64,000 nucleotides of DNA from positions 1 through 64,000 of the forward strand of contig NZ_QOLA01000013.1 in assembly GCF_003324565.1 (NCBI RefSeq), written 5' to 3'. The notes beneath the pieces are model-generated. The model had not been told where the DNA came from and made no database searches. It saw only the letters and a list, made by a program, of their open reading frames with translations. Both the position numbers and the translations under genes were made by a program. Source of the DNA: Streptomyces sp. SDr-06 (GTDB taxonomy: Bacteria > Actinomycetota > Actinomycetes > Streptomycetales > Streptomycetaceae). The stretch's first letter is position 1. The number at the start of each line of letters is the position of its first letter. Shown piece after piece: positions 16,863 to 62,058 of the stretch.

Positions 16863-17048
16863 GCGTGTCGTCCGGCCGGGTCTTGTGCCCCACCCCGCCC
16901 CTTCCCCAAACCCTCCGGGGGCGGGAGGGGGCGGCGCCGTTTCCGGAGCCCCGCCGTTTCCGGGCCCCGCCCGGGAGGCCCTCCGCCGACGAGCACCCCG
17001 GGCCACCCGCGCCCGGCCCCCATTCATCCACAGGCTGTGGACGCCACT

Positions 17049-17333
17049 CGCACAGTTCCCCGCGCCCCTCGACCCCGGTGTCTTCTGCGCGCCGCGGACG
17101 GCTGTCCGCGCAGTTCCCCGCGCCCCTGAATGCGCCTTCGTCCGCGCGCCGCGTGTGGCTTGTCGCGCAGTTGCCCGCGCCCCTTTCAGACCGTCCTTCG
17201 GCTGGCGACCGTGCGTGGTTGTTCGCGCAGTTCCCCGCGCCCCCGGCAGGGTTGCTGCCGGACACCCTGCATTCGTGAGACCCGCCTTCGTCCGCGGACC
17301 GTGCCCGCTTCTCGCGCAGTTCCCCGCGCCCCT
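17049..17333 (+). repeat. five copies of a 21-bp GC-rich module, 57-89 bp apart
   Basis: The module CGCGCAGTTCCCCGCGCCCCT, or a one- to two-base variant, starts at 17049, 17107, 17164, 17224 and 17313. The first four are spaced 58, 57 and 60 bp. The DNA between copies is also similar (GCGCGCCGCG-type blocks before each copy), so the true unit is about 58 bp. The same module recurs at 29318-29394 and 38541-38824. Confidence 0.85.
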
Positions 17334-38442: not shown

Positions 38443-38824
38443 GGGGCTCCGCCCCAGACCCCGTTTCGCGCCTGAACGGCGCTCGTCCTCAAACGCCGGA
38501 CGGGCTGAGGTTGCCCATGCGGGCCAGCACGATGCCGCCAAGGGGCGCGGGGAACGGCGCGATAAGCCCCGCACGGTCCGCAGGCGCCCTGGGGCTCCGC
38601 CCCAGACCCCGTGTCGCGCCTGAACGGCGCTCGTCCTCAATCGCCGGACGGGCTGAAGATGCCCGTGCGGGCCAGCACGATGCCGCCAAGGGGCGCGGGG
38701 AACGGCGCGAGGAGCGGGCACGGTCCGCAGGTGAACGAGGGTTTTGGGGGCGCGGGGAACTGCGCGAGGGGGTACGCACGGTCCGCAGATCGAAGGGGGT
38801 TTTGGGGGCGCGGGGAACTGCGCG
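38443..38824 (-). repeat. tandem 148-bp intergenic module and four GC-rich boxes
   Basis: The block starting GGGGCTCCGCCCCAGACCCC at 38443 is repeated at 38591, immediately adjacent, and each copy includes CCTGAACGGCGCTCGTCCTCAA. The reverse form of the GC-rich box (AGGGGCGCGGGGAACGGCGCG or variants) starts at 38541, 38689, 38746 and 38804. The last three are spaced 57 and 58 bp, as in the array at 17049-17333. Confidence 0.8.
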
Positions 38825-39017
38825 AGGGGGTACGCACGGTCTGCGGGCGAGGGTGTTGAGAGGCCCGGGCGGGGCCGTGGGTGCCGGATAGTGAGACGGG
38901 GTGTCCGGTGGGCAGGAGGCCGGGCCCGGAGGGCGACGGCGGGGAGGGGCCCGCGGGCCCCGGAGGACGCCCACGTACCAGCATGCGGATGATCGAGTCT
39001 CAGCATGCGACACACCG

Positions 39018-60255: not shown

Positions 60256-60681
60256 GTGAAAGCCACCCTGCGCAGCCGTTGTGCCCGGACGTTCGCGGCC
60301 GGTGCGCTGTCCGCCGCCCTGCTGACCGCCGGCGCGGCCGGCACCGTCGCCTCGGCCGCCACCAGCGCCAAGCCGAGCCCGTCCGCGTCCGCGTCCGCTT
60401 CCAAGTCGACCGCCTCGATCACCGTGAAGGCGACGCCGACGTCGGTGAAGGCCGGCGACAAGGTGACGTTCACCGGCCGCACCAAGGGCATGCCCATAGG
60501 CAGCAAGCTCGTGCTGCAGCACAAGAAGGGCAACAAGTGGACGACCCTGCAGGCCAGCACCACGGTCAAGCAGGGCAGCAGCTACTCGCTCGACGCCAAG
60601 CTCAACGACAAGGGCAAGCAGGAGCTGCGGGTCAAGTACGACGAGGTCACCTCGCCGACGGTCACCGTCACGGTGAAGTGA
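60256..60681 (+). CDS. small secreted Ig-like protein
   Basis: A 141-residue exported protein has a signal peptide (residues 1-34, LLTAGAAGTVASAA), a Ser/Ala/Lys spacer (PSPSASASASKSTAS) and one beta-sandwich domain (TVKATPTSVKAGDKVTFTGR). Such domains are common on secreted Streptomyces proteins and bind or spacer other parts. Start codon GTG at 60256, with AGGAGA upstream. Function unknown. Confidence 0.82.
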   Translation: MKATLRSRCARTFAAGALSAALLTAGAAGTVASAATSAKPSPSASASASKSTASITVKATPTSVKAGDKVTFTGRTKGMPIGSKLVLQHKKGNKWTTLQASTTVKQGSSYSLDAKLNDKGKQELRVKYDEVTSPTVTVTVK

Positions 60682-60736
60682 CCCGGTCGAAACCTTGAGG
60701 CCCTGAGGCCCCTGAGGTCATGAGGCCCCTGAGGTC

Positions 60737-60780
60737 ATGAGGAAGGGCCCCGCCCGACCGTGGGCGGGGCCCTTCCTCAT
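60737..60780. terminator. 19-bp perfect bidirectional terminator
   Basis: A 19-bp perfect stem (60737-60755 with 60762-60780, loop GACCGT) starts ATGAGGAAGGGCCCC. It lies between the convergent secreted protein and cysteine-rich peptide genes. It is preceded by direct repeats of GAGGCCCCTGAGGTCAT. Confidence 0.9.
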
Positions 60781-60790
60781 GCTCAAAACA

Positions 60791-60958
60791 GCGCGTTCAG
60801 CCGCCGCACTGGCAGGGTGCGCCCGACTGGCAGCCGCAGCCGCAGCCCGAGCCGCAGCCGCAGGCGCCGATCAGGCGCGTTCAGCCGCCGCACTGGCAGG
60901 GTGCGCCCGACTGGCAGCCGCAGCCGCAGCCCGAGCCGCAGCCGCAGGCGCCGATCAG
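60791..60958. repeat. perfect 84-bp tandem duplication
   Basis: Copy 1 is 60791-60874 and copy 2 is 60875-60958; each begins GCGCGTTCAGCCGCCGCACT and ends CCGATCAG, identical throughout. Copy 2 encodes the last 26 codons of the cysteine-rich peptide and its stop; copy 1 lies beyond the stop. The length is a multiple of three. Confidence 0.95.
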
Positions 60959-61030
60959 GGGCAGCCGGACCACTTCGACGGGGGTGACGGGTGCTTCCTG
61001 CCGCGGTTCGGTCGTGGGCGAATCGGCCAT
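60881..61030 (-). CDS. 49-residue Cys/Gly-rich peptide
   Basis: The peptide begins MADSPTTEPRQEAPVTPVEV and ends in a tail of alternating Gly and Cys with seven Cys in about 20 residues (GACGCGSGCGCG... CQCGG). Such a tail could bind metal, in the manner of metallothionein. The start at 61030 has GGGAGGGACC-like sequence before it. An exact 84-bp duplication covers the 3' end. It is next to phoU. Function unknown; a short RiPP-type precursor is possible but no modification genes are near. Confidence 0.7.
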   Translation of the reverse strand: MADSPTTEPRQEAPVTPVEVVRLPLIGACGCGSGCGCGCQSGAPCQCGG

Positions 61031-61194
61031 GGGTCCCTCCCGGGGGTAGGCAGACGCAAGGAGCCTTCGCTCATTGCATGCCCACGGGAGCGGGCGCGTC
61101 AACGGCGCATGCGTGCAAGCCTGTTGGAGCTCCGGGCCGGTCGGCGCGGGCGGGCGCGTTCAGCCGCGTACGGCCGCACCCGCCGCCCCCGGGG

Positions 61195-61872
61195 TCAGGC
61201 CCCCTCGACCTGCGGGGCCGCCTGGAGCTCGTCGGCGTGTTCGCCGGTGACCAGGTAGACCACGCGCTTGGCGACGGACACCGCGTGGTCCGCGAAGCGC
61301 TCGTAGTAGCGGCCGAGCAGGGTCACGTCCACCGCGGTCTCGATGCCGTGCTTCCAGCGGTCGTCCATCAGGTGCTGGAAGAGCGTGCGGTGCAGCAGGT
61401 CCATCTCGTCGTCGTCCTGCTCCAGCTGGAGGGCCAGGTCGACGTCCTTGGTGATGATGACCTCGGCGGCCTTCGCCATCAGGCGCTGGGCGAGCTGGCC
61501 CATCTCCAGGATGGTGGCGTGCAGGTCGTGCGGCACGGCGCGCTCCGGATAGCGCAGCCGGGTCAGCTTGGCCACGTGCTGGGCGAGGTCGCCCGAGCGC
61601 TCCAGGTCGGCGCTCATGCGCAGGGAGGTCACCACGATGCGCAGATCGGTGGCGACCGGCTGCTGGCGGGCCAGCAGGGCTATGGCCCTGGCCTCCAGGT
61701 CGTGCTGGAGATCGTCGACCTTCTGGTCGGCCGCGATCACGCTCTCGGCGAGCTTCAGGTCGGCGTCGAGCATGGCCGTGGTGGCGCGCCCGATCGCCGA
61801 CCCGACAAGGCGGGCCATTTCGACCAGGCCCTCGCCGATCGAGTCAAGTTCCTCGTGGTACGCGTCCCGCAT
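61195..61872 (-). CDS. phoU: phosphate signalling protein PhoU
   Basis: A 225-residue all-helical protein made of two PhoU repeats (MRDAYHEELDSIGEGLVEMA; RYYERFADHAVSVAKRVVYL). It moderates PhoR and Pst activity. It diverges from phoR, with a PHO box between them, so PhoP is expected to control both. It corresponds to SCO4228 from memory. Confidence 0.95.
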   Translation of the reverse strand: MRDAYHEELDSIGEGLVEMARLVGSAIGRATTAMLDADLKLAESVIAADQKVDDLQHDLEARAIALLARQQPVATDLRIVVTSLRMSADLERSGDLAQHVAKLTRLRYPERAVPHDLHATILEMGQLAQRLMAKAAEVIITKDVDLALQLEQDDDEMDLLHRTLFQHLMDDRWKHGIETAVDVTLLGRYYERFADHAVSVAKRVVYLVTGEHADELQAAPQVEGA

Positions 61873-61940: not shown

Positions 61941-61997
61941 CCGTTACGCGTCCGATTCGGCCATAGGAAGTGAACCGTCCCTATCACCTCGGTGAAC
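61941..61997 (-). promoter_or_regulatory. PHO box and phoU promoter
   Basis: On the minus strand three 11-bp units stand in a row: GTTCACCGAGG, TGATAGGGACG and GTTCACTTCCT (61965-61997). The first and third match the PhoP consensus well. A TAACGG -10 candidate (61941-61946) follows 18 bp later toward phoU. Confidence 0.85.
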
Positions 61998-62058
61998 TCT
62001 GGGCGACGAACGTTCGAGCGGCCACCCATTTGGCTGGGAGAGTGTCGGCGCGGCCGCA

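Follow-up and report, generated by a model that had tools for sequence, protein, structure and literature searches.

The locus considered here raises the question of why the end of a small Cys/Gly-rich peptide gene in Streptomyces sp. SDr-06 occurs twice in immediate succession, and what, if anything, the second copy does. In the window, by which we mean the whole 64,000-nucleotide stretch that was analysed, Tandem Repeats Finder assigned positions 60791-60959 a period of 84, 2.0 copies, a 100% match and a score of 338, the top score in the 64 kb. A direct string test showed that 60791-60874 is identical to 60875-60958, head-to-tail, with 0 of 84 sites differing, so the exact 84-bp tandem duplication given in the preliminary description holds. 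A copy of this kind cannot be chance. On the minus strand the unit consists of the last 25 codons of the gene (codons 25-49), its TGA and 6 bases of 3′ flank, and its length, 28 codons as originally described, is a multiple of three. The first (5′) copy, 60875-60958, is coding; the second (3′) copy, 60791-60874, lies in frame behind the TGA and is predicted to be untranslated. The end of the gene, in other words, was copied once, directly behind its own stop codon.

The gene itself proved to be familiar. The minus-strand open reading frame from 61030 to 60881 has a good start, ends at a TGA at 60881-60883 and translates as MADSPTTEPRQEAPVTPVEVVRLPLIGACGCGSGCGCGCQSGAPCQCGG; GGGAGG provides a plausible ribosome-binding site (GGGAGGGACCC-ATG). 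The 49-residue product is Cys/Gly-rich, with 7 Cys in the motifs CGC, CGCGC and CQC. Synteny and published gene order identify it as mtpA (S. coelicolor SCO4227); that the gene already had a name and is spread across the genus had not been recognised in the preliminary description. It lies directly downstream of phoU (61195-61872, minus strand; TIGR02135, E 3.7e-57) and is read in the same direction; phoR flanks phoU on the far side and is divergent. The same arrangement of phoU, upstream of mtpA on the same strand at a distance of 100-384 bp, was found in 54 of 54 fetched named loci, and phoR was present in all 54. Across its full length the peptide resembles the mtpA homologues of the phoU-phoRP locus (best non-self E 5.3e-21; 70-92% identity by alignment), and the homologues listed are 46-53 residues long, all ending alike in CQCG or CQCGG(C..). 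Judged by this alignment, the window MtpA is a normal family member of normal length, which the duplication has left unchanged.

At a threshold of E <= 0.001, 276 of 296 Streptomyces genomes contained a match to the mtpA peptide, and an mtpA profile search was positive in 14 of 17 Streptomycetaceae genera (112 of 121 genomes). When 296 genomes from across the phylum were sampled, only one match fell outside Streptomyces, and its E value of 9.3e-4 was borderline. The gene is thus near universal in Streptomycetaceae and scarcely found in the rest of the phylum sample. The SDr-06 genome carries another gene for a Cys-rich peptide, MIPEQPVPPATPPPPPFAMPGPATAQPLRAANCSCGPSCQCGCQSGGPCQCGGAVPC (locus L003, 1486-1665, minus strand; contig C11, ~180909-181079), which is likely a diverged mtpA paralogue. 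Its convergent neighbour, judged by sequence, is a D-Ala-D-Ala carboxypeptidase-like gene, and a genus search returned mostly mtpA itself.

That the peptide may bind metal, as first proposed, is right as annotation, since the gene is known as that of a metallothionein-like or small metal-binding protein beside phoU (PMC2267785, PMC7866108, PMC11019849). From its composition and this published annotation, MtpA presumably binds metal through CxC thiolates; a literature search of limited reach found no direct test of this. No curated Pfam or NCBIfam model matched the peptide above cut-off (Metallothio_5 reached E 0.039 with 14.5 bits, where 25 are required), and its profile had no match among solved structures. 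MtpA resembles SmtA of Synechococcus and MymT of Mycobacterium in being short, cytosolic-type and Cys-rich with CxC motifs; it matched none of the bacterial metallothionein models of Pfam and NCBIfam, however, nor any solved structure. Published work places mtpA/SCO4227 in the phosphate-starvation response (PMC2267785) and describes it as PhoRP-regulated and lowered in oxidative stress via HbpS-SenS-SenR (PMC4991794). In Streptomyces sp. WAC07094 most of its transcription comes from its own promoter and is supplemented by readthrough from phoU, its level rises with magnesium, and its loss left the antibiotic phenotype under study unchanged (PMC11019849). A role for MtpA and PhoU in oxidative-stress sensing has been published as a hypothesis only (PMC7866108).

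The surroundings of the gene are likewise those of an mtpA locus. An alignment of 21 Streptomyces loci revealed a conserved block, ATGCGCCGTTGACGCGCCCG...TGGGCATGCAATGAG, ~20-85 bp upstream of mtpA (61050-61115, minus strand). This block is probably the gene's own promoter; for another Streptomyces, RNA-seq together with a gfp fusion has demonstrated such a promoter (PMC11019849). The block contains TGCGCCGTTGATGCGCCC, in which GCGCC is repeated with 11-bp spacing and which is conserved in diverse Streptomyces (loci L038-L091). It fits the PHO-box consensus poorly and could be the site of another response regulator. A scan for PHO units, with the consensus taken from PMC11019849, gave a candidate PHO box of three 11-nt units, GTTCACCGAGG-TGATAGGGACG-GTTCACTTCCT, in the phoU/phoR gap (61966-61998, minus strand). 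On its other side mtpA adjoins a plus-strand gene (60256-60681) whose product has a signal-peptide-like N-terminus, so that the neighbours originally named, a secreted protein and phoU, are both in place. This gene lies near mtpA in 4 of the 54 loci, the four nearest relatives only, and its product had no convincing Pfam or NCBIfam match. Between the two genes, RNA folding and an inverted self-match identified a long inverted repeat (60736-60781; stem of 20 bp), a probable bidirectional terminator, which a simple terminator scan missed because it lacks a T-run. An Rfam scan of the 64-kb window returned no RNA family. Plus-strand open reading frames through the repeats (e.g. 60737-61258) encode Ala/Gly/Arg-rich products and were rejected as chance frames of GC-rich DNA. 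Compared with mtpA of S. coelicolor/lividans and WAC07094, the window locus is alike in its mtpA-phoU-phoRP order, with a gene for a small Cys-rich peptide following phoU directly in the same orientation, phoRP divergent, and a conserved promoter block of its own; the one difference is the additional 84 bp that follow the stop.

Copy number in relatives, earlier proposed as a check, bears directly on the age of this extra copy. The four closest loci, from S. xanthochromogenes (L038), CB01201 (L039), WM6378 (L040) and ASQP_92 (L041), have a phoU 94-98% identical to that of the window at the DNA level, and each carries a single copy. When 393 Streptomyces genomes were searched for a pattern of two tail motifs spaced by one repeat length, that of SDr-06 alone gave a match; the pattern was anchored on an exact 12-mer that 88 of the 120 fetched loci contain, and it therefore catches about three quarters of cases and misses about a quarter. 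None of the homologues read through continued into a second Cys domain after its stop. Second mtpA matches occurred in 19 Streptomyces genomes, none of them a neighbouring copy; nearly all were weak and elsewhere, mostly inside long open frames. Since the relatives are single-copy, the pattern is unique and no homologue has a second domain, these comparisons indicate that the duplicate is derived, private to the SDr-06 genome and young. The window mtpA differs by ~7% from its nearest relatives while its two copies are 0% apart, which suggests that the duplication is younger than the splits from those relatives. Gene conversion could have allowed identical copies to persist, in which case the true age would be older. 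The preliminary description had offered "recent or maintained" as alternatives. Recent is borne out by the single-copy relatives and the absence of differences, whereas maintained is not, as the copy occurs in no other Streptomyces genome searched, lacks a start and lies behind a stop.

Together these results make it likely, in our judgement, that the locus is an ordinary mtpA of the phoU-phoRP type whose last 84 bp were recently duplicated once, exactly and in tandem. The explanation that competes best is an assembly error, in which a single copy in the strain was doubled by the assembler within a GC-rich, internally repetitive (GGCTGC)n stretch. We consider this unlikely, although several facts speak for it: the duplication is known from one draft assembly of one strain, that draft consists of 76 contigs, the region is GC-rich and strongly folding, and no other genome searched has the duplication. 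Against it, the site lies deep within a 225-kb contig, and the border between the copies is clean and does not fall at the GGCTGC repeats. Exact tandem duplications with a period of at least 50 are also rare: a census of 864 kb, comprising the 64-kb window and forty 20-kb stretches (800 kb) of the SDr-06 genome, found three others, all intergenic-type repeat elements. Because there were so few, all of that type, the assembly shows no visible tendency to false duplications, and errors of this kind appear to be uncommon in it. The rate was similarly low in two other Streptomyces genomes, sampled at 200 kb each. The duplication is thus probably real. Tandem intergenic-type elements of ~57-58 bp containing TCGCGCAGTTCCCCGCGCCCCT lie at 17048-17243 and 38690-38841 of the window, and the TCGCGCAGTTCCCCGCGCCCCT element recurs elsewhere in the SDr-06 genome (L157, L176).

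If the ordinary gene with a recent duplication is what the locus contains, the second copy would most likely be strain-specific and partial, with little or no effect. The two copies share 1 bp of homology at the join (a run of 85 at a period of 84), which is in keeping with an accident rather than recombination between older repeats, and we propose a single event of replication slippage or end-joining. The original mtpA retains its start, full length and stop, leaving the peptide as it was. The extra copy sits between the mtpA stop and the terminator hairpin, where it would be transcribed as 3′ untranslated RNA and not translated. Beyond the first TGA the frame continues for 27 codons, TRLIGACGCGSGCGCGCQSGAPCQCGG, to a second TGA, and, with no ATG, GTG or TTG among those codons, the copy offers no conventional site at which translation could begin. 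The copy is in frame and open, and loss of the first stop would indeed add a second Cys-rich tail, as first pointed out.

An RNA role for the copy, as a strong 3′ hairpin that alters the stability or termination of the mtpA transcript, seems to us improbable. For the 155-nt 3′ part the predicted folding energy is -111.7 kcal/mol, with a z-score of -7.05, and the second copy makes its own long hairpin ahead of that of the terminator. However, the z-score may come mostly from the 20-bp terminator stem, which is present regardless of the duplication, the hairpin of the second copy is folded coding sequence, and no such element is conserved in relatives. A small effect on mtpA mRNA stability is possible on the strength of the predicted fold. 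We give hardly any credence to readthrough or recoding of the UGA to yield a 77-residue, two-domain, 14-Cys peptide beside the 49-residue form: the copy is in frame, open and ends at its own stop, in a unit divisible by three, but in-frame placement is a one-in-three chance, no homologue has a second domain behind its stop, the sequence holds no recoding signal, and the UGA is followed by A, to our knowledge not a leaky context.

The favoured reading, an intact mtpA with an inert partial copy, also separates this locus from known metallothionein duplications. It shares tandem duplication of metallothionein sequence with the yeast CUP1 arrays, which arose by non-homologous recombination (PMC4232551), and with domain-duplicated fungal metallothioneins (PMC12508003). 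In those cases, however, whole genes or translated domains are doubled, whereas in SDr-06 it is only a startless 3′ fragment behind a stop. The duplication has not produced a two-domain metallothionein here, as a TGA separates the copies and the second lacks a start. That it is a nascent one, giving the 77-residue, 14-Cys peptide by readthrough or one later mutation, strikes us as very improbable.

As it stands, the duplication matters little: the peptide is the known MtpA, and the copy occurs in a single genome, where it lies beyond the reading frame. Of more use is the finding that mtpA, although carried by almost all Streptomycetaceae, scores above cut-off for no Pfam or NCBIfam model. If verified by reads, the duplication would be a clean case of a partial copy of very recent date, with a single stop codon standing between it and a doubled Cys domain. 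Were the nascent two-domain reading true, SDr-06 would be displaying how the doubling of a metallothionein domain begins in bacteria.
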